Source of the DNA: a virus
Virus record (IMG/VR): IMGVR_UViG_3300021181_000027
Location: 1-35,703 of that record
Length of the DNA stretch: 35,703 bases
Direction: 5' to 3' (one strand)
Shown here: positions 24,433-35,098 of the stretch, piece by piece
Numbering within the stretch: the stretch's first letter is position 1
How the letters are laid out: every line of letters begins with the position of its first letter
Made by a program: the position numbers and the translations under genes
The notes under the pieces: model-generated
What the model was told of the DNA's origin: nothing
The model's input: only the letters and a program-made list of their open reading frames with translations
Database searches by the model: none

Positions 24433-25062
24433 GTGCGCGAGCCGTTTCCGGAGTGGGCTTGGCCGGAGGTTTGGGCTTGGATTGGCGGGCTGCGGGAGAA
24501 GCTGATCGACGACTTCGGGCCGCGCACGATGGACGAGTGGATGGCGTTCGTCGAGGAGAACGTGCATCGGCAGAGGACCTGGGGCGTGTGGATGGGCGGC
24601 GAGCTGGGCGGGGTGATCACGTTCGACAAAGGGTCGCCGATGGCGGGCGCGGTGCATTTGTATTTCAAGCGCAGCATGTGGGGGCGCGCGCCGATGCCGG
24701 CGATGCGCCAGGTCCTGGAGCTGATTTTTGCGGGGCCGACGACGAAGATTTTAACCAGTGTTTTCGAGGACAATCACGCGGCGCGCGGGATGTTCCGGAA
24801 GCTGGGGTTTCTGGTGGAGGGGCACTTCCGCTCTCAGACAGTTAGAGGCGGGAAGCCGGTGGCGATGGTCGCCGTGGGGCTGACCAAGGAGGATTTCTAT
24901 CGTGTCCATGACGGGGCTGGCAGGCCTGGCGGGGTATCTGGGAAACACGCCGGGAGCGAGAACGGGGACGAGCGTGTCGAGTCCGACATACACGCCGGAG
25001 CAGACGAACGTTCAGAACGAATACGGGTCGGACATCGAGGAGGGGCTGACCAATCCGAATGA
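24433..25062 (+). CDS. GNAT-family acetyltransferase with long overlap to next gene
   Basis: From GTG 24433, the first plausible start after the heptads, the product opens VREPFPEWAWPEVWAW. The GNAT core is WGVWMGGELGGVITFD, HLYFKRSMWGRAPMPAM, LELIFAGPTTKILTSVFEDN and AARGMFRKLGFLVEGHFR, the usual N-x-x-A-x-x-x-x-x-x-x-G-F-x-x-E/V-G acetyl-CoA-binding end. GNATs of this type are common in podovirus genomes near tail genes; the substrate is unknown. The frame continues to 25062, overlapping the next gene by 161 bases. That tail is Gly/Glu/Arg-rich out-of-frame-looking sequence, so the natural protein may have ended near 24900 before a frameshift. Confidence 0.65.
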   Translation: MREPFPEWAWPEVWAWIGGLREKLIDDFGPRTMDEWMAFVEENVHRQRTWGVWMGGELGGVITFDKGSPMAGAVHLYFKRSMWGRAPMPAMRQVLELIFAGPTTKILTSVFEDNHAARGMFRKLGFLVEGHFRSQTVRGGKPVAMVAVGLTKEDFYRVHDGAGRPGGVSGKHAGSENGDERVESDIHAGADERSERIRVGHRGGADQSE

Positions 25063-25399
25063 GACGCCGCAGTACACGGCGGGCGTCAACACGATTAATA
25101 ACGCTTACGCGGGCGCGGGGGACAACCTGACGAGCTCACTGGCTGCTCGGGGGTTTGGGAAGTCGGGCGCGGTGGGGACGGGGTTGCAGCAGCTCGCGGT
25201 GTCGAAGGCGGGGGCGGTCGGCAACGAAGAGAACACGGTCGAAAGCCAGTTCGAGAACCAGGCGGAGGGGTTCGGGTTCGCGTCGCCGGGGAAGACGACG
25301 GTGAGCGTGGGCCCGGGATCGGCGGCGGCCGGAGGGCTGGGGGCGACACTGGCATCGCTGCAATCGTCGCTGAACGCGGCGGGCGGAGGGGGACTCTAA
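24902..25399 (+). CDS. ejection-type virion protein (gp7-like position)
   Basis: 165 residues from GTG 24902 with an excellent AAGGAGG ribosome site about ten bases upstream; ATG 24908 is a second option. The sequence is Gly/Ala/Ser/Asn-rich with NNAYAGAGDNLTSSLAARGF, then GLQQLAVSKAGAVGNEENTV. Small Ala/Gly-rich membrane-active proteins of this sort (P22 gp7 class) are injected with the DNA. The family match is weak, so the call rests on composition and on its place before two further ejection-type genes. Confidence 0.55.
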   Translation: MSMTGLAGLAGYLGNTPGARTGTSVSSPTYTPEQTNVQNEYGSDIEEGLTNPNETPQYTAGVNTINNAYAGAGDNLTSSLAARGFGKSGAVGTGLQQLAVSKAGAVGNEENTVESQFENQAEGFGFASPGKTTVSVGPGSAAAGGLGATLASLQSSLNAAGGGGL

Positions 25400-25400
25400 A

Positions 25401-26738
25401 ATGGCGGTCGATCTGAGTTTTCTGGAGCCGTACTTTCAGGCACTGAGTCAAGTTCCTCATTTGCAGCAGGCCGCGGCGCAACAGGAGCAACAGCAGCAGC
25501 AGCTGGCGGAGACGACCCGGCACAACCAGGCGGATGAGGCGGTGGCGGGACGGCATGCGGACTACGCGGCCGATGCGAACCGGAGAGCGCAGCAGGCGCA
25601 GGACCTGACCCAGGCGGACACGATCCTGAAGAATGGATGGACTCCCGTGGGGAGCAGTCAGGCCGGAGCCGCACCGCCAGCAGCCGTCCAGCCCGCGCCG
25701 GCGGTGGGGTTGGGGGACGAGACGGGCGATCCGGATAACGCGGCCGGAGGGGCCCCTGCGGCGGCCGGTGTGCCGGGGTTGACCGGATCGCTGATGGCGA
25801 CGGCTCCGGTTCCCGCAGCGGCGACACCGCGACAGACGATGACGGTCGGGGGTCAGCAGTATCTGGCGCCGCCCAAGGCGGGGACTCCGGAATGGAAAGA
25901 AGAGCACGCCCGGCAGTTGCAACAGGGCTTCGATGACGACGCGGCCAAGCATGGGGCTCAATTGAACCGGGAGGGGATCATGGTTCCGGACGCCGTGGCG
26001 GACACCTTGCAGATTCCGCGCGGCCAGAAGATTCTCCCCGAGCATGTAAAGGCCTTGGCGGATCTGCACAATATTGTGGCGCCGCCGGAAAAACAGTGGA
26101 AGCCGGATCCACCGCCGTCGATGGTGACGCTGTCGCCGACGGATTCGAAACTGATGGGGTTGCCGGCGGGGACGCGGATGCCGATGGACGAGTACAAGAG
26201 CCGGGGCACGGTGGCGGCGGAGGCGTCGCGGGCGGCAAGAGGTGAGGGTGGCGGATCGGGTGAGAAGCCGGCGAAGCCTCCGACGGGGCGTCAGCTGCAG
26301 ATAAACGACGACACGAAAGCGGCGGAGCTGGCCAAGTCTGAAGTGCAGAGAGGCAAGGATCGTGCGGCGGTGTTGAAGTCGAGGGCGGCGGACAAGAATT
26401 TTGATCTTCAGGGGGCGCTGAAGCAGGCGGAAATCGACCACGCCGACCGGCAGGTGCAAATCCAGAAGCAGTACGAGCAGGGTCGCAGCGACCTGTACGG
26501 CGCGGATGTGGGGCATAACGATTGGGCCGACCGGTATCGGGCCAGTCTCGATGGTGGGGAGCAGGGCGGAACTGCCGCATCGCCCGGGCGGGCAGGCGCG
26601 GCGGCTCCTGCTGCGGCGGGTGCTGCTGGTCCGAAGCAGCTCACCGATATGTCGAAGGTCGGGGAGTACATGAAGAAGGCGGGCGGAGATAAAGTCGCGG
26701 CCCGGAAGGCCGCCGCGGCCGATGGCTTCGTGTTCTAA
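25401..26738 (+). CDS. Ala/Gln-rich ejection-type virion protein (gp20-like position)
   Basis: 445 residues. The N-terminus (LSQVPHLQQAAAQQEQQQQQ) is helical and Gln-rich, followed by a long Pro/Ala-rich disordered part. A small folded segment (DAVADTLQIPRGQKILPEHV) is next, then a charged coiled region (KAAELAKSEVQRGKDRAAVL; LKQAEIDHADRQVQIQKQYE). The end, MSKVGEYMKKAGGDKVAARKAAAADGF, resembles the short C-terminal S-K-V-x-x-Y-x-x-x-x-x-x-x-x-x-A-x-x-x-x-x-x-G-F motif of phage ejection proteins. Position matches P22 gp20. Its stop and the next ATG share one base. Confidence 0.6.
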   Translation: MAVDLSFLEPYFQALSQVPHLQQAAAQQEQQQQQLAETTRHNQADEAVAGRHADYAADANRRAQQAQDLTQADTILKNGWTPVGSSQAGAAPPAAVQPAPAVGLGDETGDPDNAAGGAPAAAGVPGLTGSLMATAPVPAAATPRQTMTVGGQQYLAPPKAGTPEWKEEHARQLQQGFDDDAAKHGAQLNREGIMVPDAVADTLQIPRGQKILPEHVKALADLHNIVAPPEKQWKPDPPPSMVTLSPTDSKLMGLPAGTRMPMDEYKSRGTVAAEASRAARGEGGGSGEKPAKPPTGRQLQINDDTKAAELAKSEVQRGKDRAAVLKSRAADKNFDLQGALKQAEIDHADRQVQIQKQYEQGRSDLYGADVGHNDWADRYRASLDGGEQGGTAASPGRAGAAAPAAAGAAGPKQLTDMSKVGEYMKKAGGDKVAARKAAAADGFVF

Positions 26739-29700
26739 TGCCCGATATTTTCGACCAGTACGCGGCCCAGCAAACGGCTCCTCCGCCGAAGGGGGACATC
26801 TTCGACCAGTACGCGGAGCAGCAGGGAAAACCGGAACTCTCGACATTACTGCCGACAGCGTCGGACGCTGTCGCGACGGCGACGGAGAATGCCCGGCAAA
26901 CGGCGAGTGCGCTGGTGAATCGGCTGATGCCTCCGATGCAGCCGACGCTTCCCTGGCAGCTCGGGAGGGCTGCTCCGAATTTCCAGCCGGAGGGATGGAC
27001 TCCGGAGCAGGAGGCGAAGTTCGAAGCCCAAGCGGAACAGCACCCAGACCCACAGGACTTCGGACCCTCGTTTCGCGGAGGCGCACAGGTGGTCCAGGGG
27101 GCTCGGCAGATTGCGAATGCTCCGGATTGGCCGGGAAGAGCCGGCGGCGCAGCTCAGATGTTCGAAGGGGGTATGGAGGCGGCTACGCCGGCAATGGCGA
27201 CCGGCGTAGTTAAGGCTCCTATTGCGGCGGCGAGGGCGGTGGTCACAGGCCTGCTGGGGCAGAGGGGGACGCAGGCGGCGCTGAAGTCGGAGGGAGTGCC
27301 AGAGGAATACGCGCGACTCGCGGGCGACCTAGCGGGTTTCGCGGCGGCCGGCTGGACGGTGAAGGACTTGGTGACGGCCGGGAAGCGGGCCATGGAACCG
27401 TTTCAGCCTGGGGCCAGGTTCGGCAAGCCGCTGGAGGGGGAGGTTATCCCTCCGGAGCAGACGCCTCCGGAAAATGGAGGGCTCGGGGCGGGGAAGGAGC
27501 CGGTGGAGGCGAGTTTCACGCGCGAGGGTCCGGACATTTTCGACAAGTACGCAGAGGCACAGAAAACCGCGACCGAAACCGGGGGCAGCTCCGGCCAAGG
27601 GGACATTTTCGATCGATACGCGGCGGAGAAGTTGCAGCCGAATGCTGCAAGTTCGGAACCCGCTCCTGGTGAACCTGGCAGCGTGGTGCAGTTGCCGACG
27701 AAGTCGATCAAGGTGGATCCGGGGCGGTTTCAGTTCAAGGCGAACGTGGGACAGGGCGGAGCTGGCGAGGAACTGCGCTCGGTAACGAAGTTCGATCCAG
27801 AGAAGTCGGGGCTGCTGAGTGTGTGGAAAGATCCGGCCGACGGGCAGACGTACGTCGTCAACGGCCACAACCGGCTGGCGCTGGCGGACCGGACGGGGGC
27901 TCCGGAGGTGACGGCGCGGTACCTGGCGGCGGATGATGCGCCCGAGGCTCGGACGAAGGGTGCGCTGATTAACATCGCGGAGGGGCGCGGGGATGCGGTC
28001 GACGCGGCGAAGGTGTTTCGGGATAGCGGGCTCGACGAGGACGCACTGCAAAAAGAGGGCGTGTCGCTGAAGGGACAGAAGGCTCAGCAGGGGCTGGCGC
28101 TGGCGAAGCTGAACCCGGAATTGTTCAACAAGGTGGTGTCGGGAGATTTGCCAGTGGAGCGGGCCGCGGTGATCGGGGCGGGGCTCGACAGTCACGAGGA
28201 CCAGGGGGCGCTGGCGGACATGCTCGACAAACGGGAGCAGAGCGGGAAGCGACTCACCAACGACCAGATCGGCGAGATGATCCGGCTGACCAATGCGGCG
28301 CCGAAGACGACAGAGACGCAGGATTCGCTGTTCGGGTCGCAGGAGATGACGCGGAGCGTGTTGCCGGAGAAGGCCGAGGTTTCGGATTTCGTGCGCAGCC
28401 AGCTGGGGAAAGAGAGCAAACTGTTTCAGGCGGTCGGCAACGAGGGCGCGGCGGCGAAGCTGGGGACGGCCGGGAACGTGATCAAGGCCGGGGATAATGC
28501 GGCGATCGCGGAGCGGACCAACCAGGCGCGGGCGTTGTACGATAAGCTGTCGACCACGACGGGGCCGGTGAACGACGCCCTCGACGTCGCTGCGTCGTCG
28601 ATCGCAAAGGGGGAAAAATCTGATGCCGCCAAGCAGCAAGCGTACGCCACAATCAGGCATGAGCTCCTCGGGCAAGCAAACCGCCTCGCCGGCACGGGCC
28701 AAGAAGCTCCTCAGCGACCTAAAGGAAATGGCGGGGGCGGGGCAGGTGCAACTGGCGGAGGGGAACTCGGTGGCTCCGCCACAGAAGTCACCAGCCAGCA
28801 GCCAGCAGCCAGGGAAGACGGGCGGGCTGGGTTACCCGAAGAAGTAGCCAGTCCGGAATGGACGCAAACGGCGCGTAGCCAGCAGCCAGCAGCCAGCCAA
28901 GACCCCGAGTACAGCGAGGCGGTCCGCATCGTGAGAGAAGCGGGGAAGGCCTCAACCTCCACGTTGCAGCGACACCTTCGCGTCGGATACGGCGCAGCAA
29001 CGCGCATTCTCGATCGGATGGAAGCGGAGGGTATTGTGGGGCCGGCATCAGGTTCGAAACCGCGCGAAGTGCTGGGGCGTGGACCGATTGCTCCGGAAGA
29101 GAAGGGCGAGATCACCCCTTCGAAGCCAGTCGACACGGGCACCACTCTCGGATCCGGGCTCGGGGCGTTTGAACCGTTTTTCCGGGACTCGATCGACGAG
29201 GGGAAGGCTCTGCTCGCGAAACGACAGGCGGCGCAGGCGGCGATGAAAGCCACTGCCGGGACGCCGGCGGAGAGGCAGTCGGGGGAAGCCAATCGTCAAT
29301 GGTACACGGGAGAGCGCGACTGGTGGCAGACTCGCGTCAACCAGGCGATCGACCGGAGCGAAAAACTATTTACTCCGGACGTGAAGACGCGGGAAGCGGT
29401 CGGCATCATGCGCGAGTTCGAGCATCGGCCAGGCGAGCTCCAACAGATTTACGACGGAACGCATCCGTCGCTCGCGATGGCTCCGCCGGCGGCGCTGAAA
29501 CGCATTGAGCAATTGCGGCCGGCGATGAAGTTGGCTTTGAACCCGACGCCGAAGATGGAGAAGGCGAATCGGGTGTACACAAACATCGCCGAGAAAACGC
29601 TGCAAGAAGGGCAGGCCGGCGGTTTTCTGGGGTCGCGGTGGAAGTCCGATGAATACTTGCCGCACATTTATCACGAGCCTGGTGTGCTGGGAGGGACTGG

Positions 29701-31378
29701 CGAAGAGGTCGCGCCGGCGGCGCCGCAGGACCGCATCAACCTGACGGGGAACATCGGCAAGCATTTTCAGTTCGCGGCGAAACGGTTCGATGAGTATCCG
29801 ACGATGCTGCACGCCGTGATGGACGGCAAGGTTCCGAAGACGATGGACCCGGCGGACGCGTTCGCGATTCACGGTGCGAACTTCGCGCGGGCCCGGGCCA
29901 CGCATCTGTTCGAAAAACACCTGGCCGCTAACGGCATGGGGCACTGGGGAACCGAACAAACCGCGCCCAAAGATTGGGTTCCGCTGGCGGGGCATAGCGA
30001 CGAATTCACGCGTATCGGCGGTGGCGGGATGCAGAGGCTGTACGTGCCTCCATTCATTCAGAAGGCGCTGAAGCCGGTGACGGACCCGGAAGTCTCAGGG
30101 ACGGCGTTCAACGCGATCCGCGGCGCGCAGCGCGGCCTGAAAGAGGCGATTCTCGGACTGTCGGGATTCCACCTGCTGACGGAGAATATCGTCGGCCTGG
30201 CGGGCATGGGGCCGGGGGCGATGTACAAATCGTTGCAGCGGCCGCTGGAGTCCCCGGAGTCGCTGAAGTGGGAGCGGGATGGCGCGATTCACGGGCTGAA
30301 CACCTCGATCACGGGGCGGACGATGGACGCCTACCGGAACTTGAAGCCGGGGTCGATTCCGACGCGCGGGGAGATTGTGCGGGCGTTCATTCCCGGATCG
30401 AAGCACGTGCTGGAGGCGGCGCGCGCCATCACGAAATTCACATTCGACAACATCCAGCGGCGATATAAGATCGGCGGCTATATGCTGCACTCGATGGCGT
30501 GGGATCAGCAGAATCCCCACGGGACGCCAGAGCAGAGGAGTTTGGCGCGGCAGGGAATTGCGAGCTACCTGAACGGAGTTTTCGGCGGGCTGCACTGGGA
30601 AAACATGGGCATCGGGAAAGCCGCGGTTGAAACAGCGCGGATGCTGCTGCTGGCTCCGGACTGGTCGGGGTCGAATGTGGCGCTGGCGAAATATGCGGGG
30701 GACGCGAAGCTGGCTGCGAAGGAGCTGCCGTTGCGCGACAAGCTGGCGGGCGCCACGACGAAGGAATCGGTGCAGGCGCGGCTGTCGAGGGCCTTCTGGG
30801 TGAAGTCGATTGTGGGGGGCCTGATCGCGACGCAGATGATGAGCCTGCTGTGGTCGCACCAATACAGCAAGAAGCCGTTCCTGGTCTATGGGGGCAAGGA
30901 CAAAGACGGGAAGGACGTGTATATCAACATGGCCTTTCGCGGCGCCGCCGGCGACCTGGTGCACGCGGCCCAGTTGATGGAAGAGCACGGGCTGATCCAA
31001 GGTGCGGCGACCTTTGCCGGCAGCAAGGCGGCTCCGTTCACGAAGGCCGCGGTGCATCAGTTCACGGGCCGAAACGACTTCGGGCGGGAGATCGCGCCGG
31101 CGGGATTGAGCCCGGTGGCGAACACGGTGCGCAGTGCGGGGCAGTTGGTGTCGGACGTGTCGCCTATTCCAATCGCAGCGAAGAGTCTGCAACACACGAT
31201 GCTCGGGGACGAAGCGGAGAAGTACTCGTGGTCTGAGCGGGCGCTGTCGATGATCGGGACGCCTCCGCAGCACGTCGGGGAGAAGAAGGAATCGACGAAG
31301 CCGGAGAACTCGCTCATGGATCAGATCCGGACGGGGCAGGCGCACGAAGTGAAACACCGGAAGAAGGCGGGGCAATGA
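26738..31378 (+). CDS. ejected polyvalent protein: DIFDxYA motifs, ParB-like domain, FtsK-gamma winged helix
   Basis: 1546 residues. DIFD(Q/K/R)YA occurs four times (about residues 3, 20, 266, 289), a motif I recall at the N-terminus of phage ejection proteins. Residues ~321-510 form a ParB/DarB-like domain: KSIKVDPGRFQFKA, VNGHNRLALADRTG (the ParB GxHR-type centre), then GALINIAEGRGDAVDAAKVF and a helical tail. Residues ~684-721 are a heptad/palindrome-encoded linker. Residues ~722-778 (SEAVRIVREAGKASTSTLQR, then HLRVGYGAATRILDRMEAEG and IVGPASGSKPREVL) match the FtsK gamma DNA-binding winged helix closely. The C-terminal half is a large helical domain with a hydrophobic segment near residue 1354. 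It sits at the P22 gp16 position, so it is probably injected with the DNA. Confidence 0.75.
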   Translation: MPDIFDQYAAQQTAPPPKGDIFDQYAEQQGKPELSTLLPTASDAVATATENARQTASALVNRLMPPMQPTLPWQLGRAAPNFQPEGWTPEQEAKFEAQAEQHPDPQDFGPSFRGGAQVVQGARQIANAPDWPGRAGGAAQMFEGGMEAATPAMATGVVKAPIAAARAVVTGLLGQRGTQAALKSEGVPEEYARLAGDLAGFAAAGWTVKDLVTAGKRAMEPFQPGARFGKPLEGEVIPPEQTPPENGGLGAGKEPVEASFTREGPDIFDKYAEAQKTATETGGSSGQGDIFDRYAAEKLQPNAASSEPAPGEPGSVVQLPTKSIKVDPGRFQFKANVGQGGAGEELRSVTKFDPEKSGLLSVWKDPADGQTYVVNGHNRLALADRTGAPEVTARYLAADDAPEARTKGALINIAEGRGDAVDAAKVFRDSGLDEDALQKEGVSLKGQKAQQGLALAKLNPELFNKVVSGDLPVERAAVIGAGLDSHEDQGALADMLDKREQSGKRLTNDQIGEMIRLTNAAPKTTETQDSLFGSQEMTRSVLPEKAEVSDFVRSQLGKESKLFQAVGNEGAAAKLGTAGNVIKAGDNAAIAERTNQARALYDKLSTTTGPVNDALDVAASSIAKGEKSDAAKQQAYATIRHELLGQANRLAGTGQEAPQRPKGNGGGGAGATGGGELGGSATEVTSQQPAAREDGRAGLPEEVASPEWTQTARSQQPAASQDPEYSEAVRIVREAGKASTSTLQRHLRVGYGAATRILDRMEAEGIVGPASGSKPREVLGRGPIAPEEKGEITPSKPVDTGTTLGSGLGAFEPFFRDSIDEGKALLAKRQAAQAAMKATAGTPAERQSGEANRQWYTGERDWWQTRVNQAIDRSEKLFTPDVKTREAVGIMREFEHRPGELQQIYDGTHPSLAMAPPAALKRIEQLRPAMKLALNPTPKMEKANRVYTNIAEKTLQEGQAGGFLGSRWKSDEYLPHIYHEPGVLGGTGEEVAPAAPQDRINLTGNIGKHFQFAAKRFDEYPTMLHAVMDGKVPKTMDPADAFAIHGANFARARATHLFEKHLAANGMGHWGTEQTAPKDWVPLAGHSDEFTRIGGGGMQRLYVPPFIQKALKPVTDPEVSGTAFNAIRGAQRGLKEAILGLSGFHLLTENIVGLAGMGPGAMYKSLQRPLESPESLKWERDGAIHGLNTSITGRTMDAYRNLKPGSIPTRGEIVRAFIPGSKHVLEAARAITKFTFDNIQRRYKIGGYMLHSMAWDQQNPHGTPEQRSLARQGIASYLNGVFGGLHWENMGIGKAAVETARMLLLAPDWSGSNVALAKYAGDAKLAAKELPLRDKLAGATTKESVQARLSRAFWVKSIVGGLIATQMMSLLWSHQYSKKPFLVYGGKDKDGKDVYINMAFRGAAGDLVHAAQLMEEHGLIQGAATFAGSKAAPFTKAAVHQFTGRNDFGREIAPAGLSPVANTVRSAGQLVSDVSPIPIAAKSLQHTMLGDEAEKYSWSERALSMIGTPPQHVGEKKESTKPENSLMDQIRTGQAHEVKHRKKAGQ
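28790..28896 (+). repeat. heptads plus composite palindromic element, copy 4 (in frame inside polyvalent gene)
   Basis: Heptads at 28790-28812, then the composite core at 28847-28896 (two substitutions in the core, GAATGG for GAACGG and ACGGCG for ACAGCG). All of it is read through in frame as a linker immediately before the FtsK-gamma domain. Confidence 0.9.
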
Positions 31379-32772: not shown

Positions 32773-32787
32773 GAACTCCTAAGAGTG

Positions 32788-32888
32788 TAGCGTGCGGACG
32801 CATGACTATGCCGGTCGGGAATTTCCTAGTTGTTATGCGTGCGGACGCATGATCTACTAGGATCGCCTCTTATGCGTGCGGACGCATA
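32788..32888. promoter_or_regulatory. divergent control region with three palindromic operator-like sites
   Basis: Three copies of the 16-bp palindrome ATGCGTGCGGACGCAT: 32788-32803 (first two bases differ), 32835-32850 (perfect) and 32872-32887 (perfect, extending to 18 bp). Centres are 47 and 37 bases apart. They lie between the divergent starts at 32772 (minus) and 32909 (plus), an arrangement typical of a repressor switch region. The cognate repressor is not identified. Confidence 0.75.
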
Positions 32889-32908: not shown

Positions 32909-33436
32909 ATGGAATCCAGTTCAACTTTGAGATTTGAGCCGAACGTGCCGGTGGACGTGGCTTTGAAGTATGCCGGCGGGTTTCAGGTGACGTCGACGAA
33001 GACGAACCTGCCGCAGATGATGTACACGCTGACCGACGGGCGCCGGATGTATCTGGACCTGGCGGTGGCGGCGCGGGTGGATGCGCTGGGCGTGCCAAAG
33101 GGGCAGTCGTTCACGATCTGCAAAGTCGGGAAGGGCAAAGACGCGCAGTGGGCGGTGGGCAGCAAAGAAGCCGTGGCGGAGGCTGTGCCAGTGGTGCGGA
33201 GGCCTGCGCCACTCGAGTTTCCGGCGAAGCCGGAAGAGAGCTCGGCCGACGTGCGATCGCGCCAGGTAGTGGCTTCGGCGGACAACTCGATGCGGGCGTA
33301 TCTGAAGGCAGCGGTTTCCGCGGTGGCTGATACGGAGAAGTACGCGCACTCGATAGGAAGGGAGCTGACGTTCAGCTCGGCCGACGTGCTGACGGCGGCG
33401 ATTTTTCTGGCGCAGATGAGAGGGGGCCAGTGCTGA
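32909..33436 (+). CDS. conserved early phage protein, 175 aa
   Basis: From ATG 32909, just after the third operator-like site, with GGGAAGG as ribosome site. The N-terminal ~90 residues are a beta-rich unit: LRFEPNVPVDVALKYAGGFQ, MYTLTDGRRMYLDLAVAARV, and GVPKGQSFTICKVGKG. Resemblance to small conserved proteins of Acidobacteriota and their phages is from memory. A Pro/Glu-rich linker follows, then a helical end (MRAYLKAAVSAVADTEKYAH) reaching LTAAIFLAQM. A single-strand DNA or RNA-binding role has been a thought, but there is no motif that proves it. Being first after the operators, it is probably an early, repressor-controlled gene. Confidence 0.65.
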   Translation: MESSSTLRFEPNVPVDVALKYAGGFQVTSTKTNLPQMMYTLTDGRRMYLDLAVAARVDALGVPKGQSFTICKVGKGKDAQWAVGSKEAVAEAVPVVRRPAPLEFPAKPEESSADVRSRQVVASADNSMRAYLKAAVSAVADTEKYAHSIGRELTFSSADVLTAAIFLAQMRGGQC

Positions 33437-33823: not shown

Positions 33824-33882
33824 AAACCGGTTTGCAAACCGGTTTTGCCAAACCGGTTTTGCCGGGAAAACCAAACCGGTTT
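33824..33882. promoter_or_regulatory. cluster of four perfect AAACCGGTTT palindromes
   Basis: AAACCGGTTT at 33824-33833, 33836-33845, 33850-33859 and 33873-33882 (start-to-start 12, 14 and 23 bases). The cluster lies in a ~335-base gap without a sure gene, ahead of an AT-rich stretch containing TATACT (33930-33935), a candidate -10 element without a clear -35. Operator array or iteron-like origin are the two readings. Confidence 0.7.
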
Positions 33883-34483: not shown

Positions 34484-35098
34484 ATGTTCAAAAAAAGGCC
34501 GAAAAAACAGCCGAAAACGAAGCGAGCGGCCCGAAATAGTTATTCTGAGCCGTTCAAGCGGGATTACTTCTCGGCGGACGAAATCAGGCGTTTTTTCGCG
34601 GTTTTAAAGGGAAATCGGGACAAAGCGATGTTTCGGGTCATGTACCTGAAAGCGCTGCGGGCTTCCGAGGTCGGCATGCTGCGGATGGAAGACTATCACG
34701 AGCGTGAGGGGCGGCTGTTCGTGCGCCGGCTGAAGCATTCGAAAGCTGGTGAATTTCGATTGCATCGGCAAGAGGGCCAATTCCTGCGCGCGTGGATCCG
34801 GGAGCGCGGGCGCGCGCCGGGCGCGATTTTTCGATCGCGGAATCATCGGCCGATATCGCGGCGGCAGTTGGATCGCCTGGTGAAACAGTACGGCGCCGCG
34901 GCGGGGTTGCCGGCAGAGAAGTGCCATGCGCACGCGTTCAAGCATTCGCGGGGGACGCACCTGCTCAGCGACACGCGGGACATCACGCTGGTCCAGGACC
35001 AGCTCGGGCATCGGAACATCCAGAACACGATGATCTATGCCGAGGTGTCGAATCCCGCGCGGGAGGATTTGTTCGAAAAGCAGAAGGATCGGTGGTGA
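34484..35098 (+). CDS. minimal tyrosine recombinase/integrase
   Basis: 204 residues: a basic tail (KKRPKKQPKTKRAARN) and then directly the catalytic domain, with no N-terminal core-binding (SAM-like) domain. Catalytic positions: Arg I in YLKALRASEVGMLR; the beta-hairpin Lys in RRLKHSKAG; H-x-x-K-H in HAHAFKHSRGTHLL, where nearly all relatives have H-x-x-R, so Arg II is replaced by Lys; the later His in QLGHRNIQNTM and the nucleophile Tyr in MIYAEV. It is either a subfamily that uses Lys or a weakened enzyme. Likely catalyses integration/excision or dimer resolution of the element. Candidate -10 TATACT at 34437-34442. Confidence 0.8.
   Translation: MFKKRPKKQPKTKRAARNSYSEPFKRDYFSADEIRRFFAVLKGNRDKAMFRVMYLKALRASEVGMLRMEDYHEREGRLFVRRLKHSKAGEFRLHRQEGQFLRAWIRERGRAPGAIFRSRNHRPISRRQLDRLVKQYGAAAGLPAEKCHAHAFKHSRGTHLLSDTRDITLVQDQLGHRNIQNTMIYAEVSNPAREDLFEKQKDRW

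Follow-up and report, generated by a model that had tools for sequence, protein, structure and literature searches.

A motor-less FtsK gamma domain in a large polyvalent, probably ejected phage protein

The 1546-residue protein and its gamma domain

The stretch of DNA analysed here (the window) is the whole IMG/VR record IMGVR_UViG_3300021181_000027, 35,703 bases in length, which appears to come from a soil phage with a host among the Acidobacteria. The window is probably a fragment of a larger genome, because five near relatives (L003, L010, L011, L012 and L024) have records of 44.7–48.8 kb. It encodes a polyvalent, probably ejected protein of 1546 amino acids (aa) that contains a gamma domain like that of the translocase FtsK, and this domain is the subject of the present study. 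The open reading frame (ORF) and the features within it are arranged as follows.

26738..31378, + strand: 1546-aa polyvalent, gp16-like, probably ejected virion protein (one ORF; C-terminal family of 22)
26744..26815, + strand: putative N-terminal tag in two copies, DIFDQYA (aa 3–9 and aa 20–26)
27533..27622, + strand: further pair of putative tags, DIFDKYA (aa 266–272) and DIFDRYA (aa 289–295), directly before the ParB-like module
27647..28648, + strand: phrog_21 module (aa 304–637) with the ParB-box-like motif VVNGHNRLALA; also present in L010, L012 and L014
28793..28903, + strand: direct repeat of 27 nucleotides (nt) in the linker preceding gamma, copies at 28793–28819 and 28877–28903, 93% identical
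28895..29074, + strand: FtsK gamma winged-helix domain, aa 720–779 (Pfam, phmmer, AlphaFold2 and Foldseek)
29135..31378, + strand: conserved C-terminal scaffold of 747 aa, mostly alpha-helical and weakly T7-ejectosome-like

Residues 720–779 match FtsK_gamma (PF09397) in hmmscan with E=1e-24 and 86.4 bits against a cut-off of 30.6, over profile positions 2–61 of 63, and this is the sole Pfam family above its cut-off in the 1546-aa protein. A profile search of the window DNA places the domain identically (28895–29074; E=1.8e-27). When compared with the PDB by phmmer, the domain matches the FtsK gammas of E. coli and P. aeruginosa (2j5o, 5e-12; 2ve8, 5e-12; 2j5p, 4.5e-11). A two-sequence AlphaFold2 model of 69 aa consists of three helices and one strand (mean predicted local distance difference test score, pLDDT, 82.5), and all 13 of its Foldseek matches at E<=0.001 are FtsK gamma structures (TMq 0.77–0.80). 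Judged by sequence and predicted fold, the domain is a true FtsK gamma with a winged-helix fold. An earlier sequence-only reading had recognized it at aa ~722–778 (28902–29070), correct to within a few bases, and the profile search and structure prediction that it proposed both bear it out.

The FtsK_SpoIIIE motor (PF01580) has no match in the window and none in the 1546-aa protein. The phage domain resembles the gamma of FtsK/SpoIIIE (PF09397; PDB 2j5p, 2ve8, 2ve9 and 5dcf) in sequence, fold and most DNA- and XerD-facing residues, but it stands without a motor in either its protein or the window, lies inside a large virion-type protein and has lost Arg1297 (E. coli numbering). The 27-nt repeat in the linker before it encodes SQQPAA two times and may be the scar of a domain gain.

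A constant scaffold with exchangeable cargo

A family search with the C-terminal 750 aa as query yielded 21 viral loci and two loci from metagenome-assembled genomes (MAGs), for a total of 23. Both MAG loci belong to Bryobacterales (Acidobacteriota), from bog and palsa, and the MAG assignment of L007 and L008 may be a binning error. We compared 22 sequences including that of the window, with L009 and L021 dropped as repeats of L008 and L020 (equal ORF lengths); the 5′ end is incomplete in L007 and L025, and the 3′ end in L016 and L018. The records that carry the family range in size from 18 to 94 kb. The C-terminus of the other 21 members is 32–70% identical to that of the window protein, and the N-terminal part varies in length and content. 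In a tblastn search of 50,697 phage records, the C-terminus found no match at E<=0.01.

Across the 22 members, 17 Pfam families are found at E<=0.01, some of them overlapping or close to this threshold. They include ddrB-ParB (6 members), Zeta_toxin (3), SLT, FtsK_gamma, His_Phos_1, PBECR1 and LPD22 (2 each), as well as Radical_SAM, Acb1, methyltransferase, helicase and other domains that occur once. The N-terminal part is exchangeable cargo on a constant C-terminal scaffold, and the family carries several functionally different domains exchanged among relatives, as expected of polyvalent proteins. Acb1 (an anti-CBASS protein, matched in one member at E=2.2e-4), PBECR1 and the zeta toxin are candidates for further injected proteins on the same scaffold.

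The second gamma of the family resides at aa 507–564 of L012 (E=4.6e-20), where it is N-terminal to the phrog_21 module, whereas the gamma of the window protein is C-terminal to it. Because the two domains lie on opposite sides of this module, gamma has either moved or been gained twice. In L005 and L010, the position behind the phrog_21 module that gamma fills in the window is taken by a zeta-toxin-like kinase. Gamma is found in two of the four members with the phrog_21 module, versus none of the 18 others.

The sequence-only reading had joined gamma to a ParB-like domain. This description holds in so far as aa 304–637 belong to phrog_21 (E=6e-81) and include a motif resembling the ParB box (GHxR). 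It does not extend to known models: with HMMER filters on, Pfam gives no family for this segment up to E=5, ParB models included. By hhalign, the segment aligns with three ddrB-ParB segments at a probability of 0.2, and with a true ParB_N protein, in the one pair compared, over 36 columns around the ParB box (probability 5.9; E=0.0064). The family phrog_21 is filed as ‘portal protein’, and tblastn relatives of the module occur in Prochlorococcus P-SCSP1 phages, Ruegeria phage 45A6 and Dunaliella viridis virus SI2.

Two genes directly upstream of the 1546-aa ORF are further candidates for core proteins.

24902..25399, + strand: 165-aa protein matched very weakly (E=0.028) by PHROG ‘DNA ejection’
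25401..26738, + strand: 445-aa protein adjoining the 1546-aa ORF, placed where a core protein would be; matches no family over cut-off

A non-contractile tail sheath protein (PF23845) is also encoded upstream. The sequence-only reading expected the 1546-aa protein to be delivered into the cell along with the DNA. That it is polyvalent and probably ejected is reasonable, because some relatives bear a transglycosylase and the scaffold has weak fold similarity to T7-type ejectosomes. An N-terminal SLT transglycosylase is found by Pfam at aa 17–124 of L019, and in L017 by the Pfam count together with inspection of the sequence by eye. The PHROG annotations ‘internal virion protein with endolysin domain’ and ‘DarB-like antirestriction’ are each matched by two of the 22 members, and in BFVD the C-terminal part matches, among others, proteins annotated as ‘large polyvalent protein’, ‘zeta toxin’ and ‘LT_GEWL’ (best E=4e-13).

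The top three VIA-align matches of the C-terminus are core or ejectosome chains of T7 and PhiM1, with Z scores of 7.0, 6.4 and 6.2 (the next is 4.6) and root-mean-square deviations of 4.9–5.8 over 186–211 residues; according to the tool's note, a Z below ~13 may reflect just a common helical arrangement. Judging by their length, we take these chains to be of the gp16 type. Likeness to T7 gp16-type ejection proteins consists of the position behind two other candidate core genes, the N-terminal transglycosylase in L019 and L017, and the weak C-terminal fold match, and the family differs from them in its variable cargo segment and in having no significant match among PDB structures by Foldseek.

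The beginning of the protein repeats itself with a score of 51, compared to 20.0 +/- 3.7 in shuffled sequences. N-terminal repeats at p<0.05 (200 shuffles, uncorrected) are present in 13 of the 20 members complete at the 5′ end, versus 1 of 22 other ORFs in the window. Short repeats in the first 70 aa occur in L003, L008, L010–L014, L016, L018, L022, L023, L028 and the window protein, and the repeated motif varies by protein (DIFDQYA, LTPDSFMAS, VDGMRITGPG and GWSWGT). A possible function of the repeated motif is that of a packaging or ejection tag.

Gamma domains in other phages and their origin

Motor-less gammas are common in phages. A tblastn search with gamma matched 376 of the 50,697 phage records, and among the 60 matches listed are FtsK-like translocases, RdgC-like proteins and hypothetical proteins. 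From IMG/VR we kept 80 of 104 gamma loci, all of which were checked for ORF size: a crude motor motif is present in four, and the ORF exceeds 2,000 aa in three (the L012 record, L064 and L080). Pfam found the motor in two of eight gamma ORFs from outside the C-terminal family. Among the motor-less phage fusions are FtsK_gamma with ParB_N and HTH_ParB (L083:4666-6201) and FtsK_gamma with RdgC (L086:4594-6198).

The protein at L064:4069-12180 comprises 2704 aa, with its 3′ end open at the locus edge, and includes FtsK_gamma, RelA_SpoT (below cut-off), ddrB-ParB, GGDEF and an AAA_34 helicase. The sequence after its gamma is ARPEWL, comparable to KRPDWL in the Bryobacterales FtsKs. In L080, Pfam finds gamma alone. 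Both proteins have N-terminal repeats that, judged by eye, are comparable to those of the C-terminal family. The records of L064 and L080 gave no match to the C-terminal family, with the L012 record as positive control, and so gamma recurs in giant phage proteins beyond this family.

The sequence-only reading knew of no FtsK gamma in an ejected virion protein. This was too strong, because the joining is already in print: the account of DNA-binding domains by Iyer et al. (2017; PMC5512222) lists the FtsK winged helix-turn-helix (wHTH) among the infrequent ones of polyvalent proteins, names Cupriavidus WP_029307715 and predicts that it binds double-stranded DNA. Moreover, the sections of Kazantseva et al. 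(2021; PMC8190038) on Bacillus phages Sam46 and Sam112 describe an FtsK_gamma at the N-terminus of the small terminase, and give the roles of single gamma-like phage genes as unknown. Gamma in polyvalent proteins is thus already described, and the phage studied here adds a further case. As in the proteins of Iyer et al., the FtsK wHTH is among several domains swapped within a giant protein that is predicted to be delivered along with the DNA; the differences, with the Cupriavidus protein compared by its description there, are the gp16-like C-terminal scaffold and the apparent Acidobacteria phages. The Sam46/Sam112 small terminase also has a motor-less gamma in a phage DNA-handling protein, but is a terminase rather than an ejected protein.

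To compare residues, E. coli numbering was anchored at RQFRIGYNR = 1289–1297, as given in PMC5052618. Table 1 of that paper lists Q1288, R1289, R1292, I1293, G1294 and N1296 as positions of E. coli gamma that contact XerD; the window protein has Q, R, R, V, G and G there, so that the XerD-contact residues are, by alignment, largely kept. Q1288, R1289 and G1294 are unchanged in all four giant-protein gammas (window, L012, L064 and L080). At R1300, E1303 and E1306, described in PMC2680272 as the KOPS-reading residues of E. coli FtsK (KOPS, FtsK orienting polar sequences), the window protein has R, D and E, and the FtsKs of two Bryobacterales genomes have R, D and Q. G1296 (15/32) and D1303 (28/32) are also the commonest residues in 32 Acidobacteriota FtsK gammas, a set that is not a random sample because it consists of the 30 best-scoring loci (94 of 99 sampled genomes matched) plus two from another search.

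The nearest gammas by phmmer score are those of the two Bryobacterales FtsKs, at 81.6 and 79.1 bits, and L056 follows at 70.3. A FastTree phylogeny of 108 tips groups the four giant-protein gammas with three small phage gammas at a support of 0.25, with no host tip among them. This tree of 62 columns speaks neither for nor against a host origin, and gamma may have been taken from the host or may circulate among phages.

Downstream of the 1546-aa ORF lies a recombinase gene.

34484-35098: Xer-like tyrosine recombinase of 204 aa, catalytic domain only (PF00589, E=3e-30; XerD 1a0p, 3e-15)

When aligned to XerD, this protein reads HAFK at the HxxR motif, with lysine replacing arginine. Between the two genes, the perfect palindrome AAACCGGTTT occurs four times within 59 bp (33824–33882). 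With a definition set after viewing the window (at least three identical 10-bp palindromes), no such cluster arose in 60 shuffles of the window. Among nine related records, scanned in pieces and in two cases short of the end, the one other cluster was AAGTGCACTT, three times, in the L012 record, which also carries gamma. In addition, an 18-nt repeat containing the palindrome ATGCGTgcggACGCAT occurs three times at 32786–32887, spaced 37–47 bp apart and with the first copy 83% identical, upstream of the ORF at 32909–33436.

A possible address domain for injected cargo

We propose that a gp16-like ejection protein could serve as a delivery vehicle, in which a constant C-terminal scaffold carries swappable N-terminal cargo. 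In this phage, the cargo would be a ParB-like module followed by the motor-less FtsK gamma. After injection, gamma would bind double-stranded DNA of the host chromosome or of the incoming phage, the probable sites being sequences like those recognized by FtsK, and once bound it would keep the neighbouring cargo on the DNA. Computation supplied the starting points: the domain with its fold and without a motor, cargo that is swapped, and a close match to the FtsK gamma found in the likely host group. To these the proposal adds that the 1546-aa protein would be packaged, ejected and tethered through DNA binding. We consider the chance roughly even that gamma acts as an address domain of this kind, keeping injected cargo attached to DNA through its own DNA binding.

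Several observations weigh against this proposal. Gamma is absent from 20 of the 22 relatives, indicating that the scaffold can do without it; loss of the match among aligned homologues, which the sequence-only reading had named as a point against itself, has therefore occurred in part, with the window and one more member retaining gamma. The T7-type fold match is weak, and a Foldseek search of the PDB with the C-terminus gave an unrelated structure as its best match (E=0.16). Arg1297, the start of the recognition helix, is arginine in all 32 Acidobacteriota gammas, and the window, L012, L064 and L080 have A, E, V and E there and R, R, N and K at position 1300. These changes may have altered or abolished KOPS reading of the host type. 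Finally, the window shows no enrichment of the KOPS sequence GGGNAGGG (+ strand, 5 versus 9.9 expected; − strand, 0 versus 0.4), a partial test given that the host's own KOPS is unknown.

Other candidate recognition sequences were also counted in the window. The sequence GAGAAGGG occurs once on the + strand and not on the − strand, which is not above Markov-shuffled sequence. GAAGAAG, which was scored as the L. lactis motif (the corresponding passage of PMC8190038 gives GAGAAG), occurs 19 times on the + strand versus 2.8 expected and once on the − strand versus 1.2, an excess that coding-strand codon use might explain.

On the alignment, the most testable detail is that Arg1297 is lost and most of the face retained. 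Among the 70 other unique phage gammas, 48 have R and 8 have K at position 1297; for this set L066 and L097 were put aside as motor proteins, and L067 and L071 (crude motif) were kept and may have motors. The motor-bearing L097 has E at this position too. The loss is a lead rather than a statistic, because the four giant-protein gammas may share kinship.

Gamma might instead act within the virion, by binding phage DNA in the head, where it would set the orientation of that DNA or fasten the core protein to the leading end. A precedent is the fusion of FtsK_gamma to the small terminase described for Sam46 and Sam112 (PMC8190038), and the five GGGNAGGG matches in the window all lie on one strand. 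However, this strand bias is what base composition predicts, and relatives mostly do without gamma, and we regard such a role as unlikely.

A role in recombination is a little less probable still. Here the injected gamma would stimulate host XerD, or the short Xer-like recombinase of the phage, early in infection, to circularize, resolve or integrate the genome. The residues retained at the XerD-contact positions, among them the G1296 that is commonest in Acidobacteriota FtsKs, and the recombinase encoded in the window fit this function, as does the finding reported in PMC5052618 that a nine-residue surface peptide fused to XerC suffices for XerCD activation. In contrast, R1289 is also kept in 69 of the 70 other phage gammas. 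A tyrosine recombinase of this family is found in 10 of 13 records searched, nine of those without gamma, and none was found in the gamma-bearing L012 record. No dif-like site was found in the window with one generic pattern at <=3 mismatches.

It seems improbable that the injected gamma is a decoy that occupies KOPS or XerD, blocks host FtsK and stalls division or chromosome processing. The nearest gammas by score do come from the Bryobacterales genomes that carry relatives of the 1546-aa protein, but the recognition helix has diverged, and the copies injected per virion, as with T7 gp16, would be few against many KOPS sites. Moreover, E. coli ftsK[blind], defective in KOPS reading only, had no significant change in growth rate in the experiments of PMC2680272 that bear on it, so that blocking KOPS alone would have little effect.

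Equally improbable is a hitch-hiking or decaying spare winged helix with no present function. Such a domain could well occur in two of 22 relatives at two different places and have an altered recognition helix. The three residues of the DNA/XerD face that are unchanged in the four giant proteins argue against it, as does the recurrence of gamma in L064 and L080, whose records are without the C-terminal family. The boldest suggestion, that a delivered copy of the host's FtsK gamma switches on Xer recombination (by host XerCD or by the short Xer-like recombinase of the phage) or misleads FtsK in the first minutes of infection, independent of division, is a long shot, and if true it would make gamma an FtsK regulator that acts from outside, via injection.

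The address-domain proposal places the FtsK wHTH of polyvalent proteins on a gp16-like ejection scaffold and in phages that apparently infect Acidobacteria, which extends its known range. With one C-terminus and many cargos, the 22-member family is a catalogue of possibly injected phage proteins. If the gamma domain is delivered and binds DNA, it would offer a case, small and open to testing, of how phage proteins reach their sites in the cell after injection.
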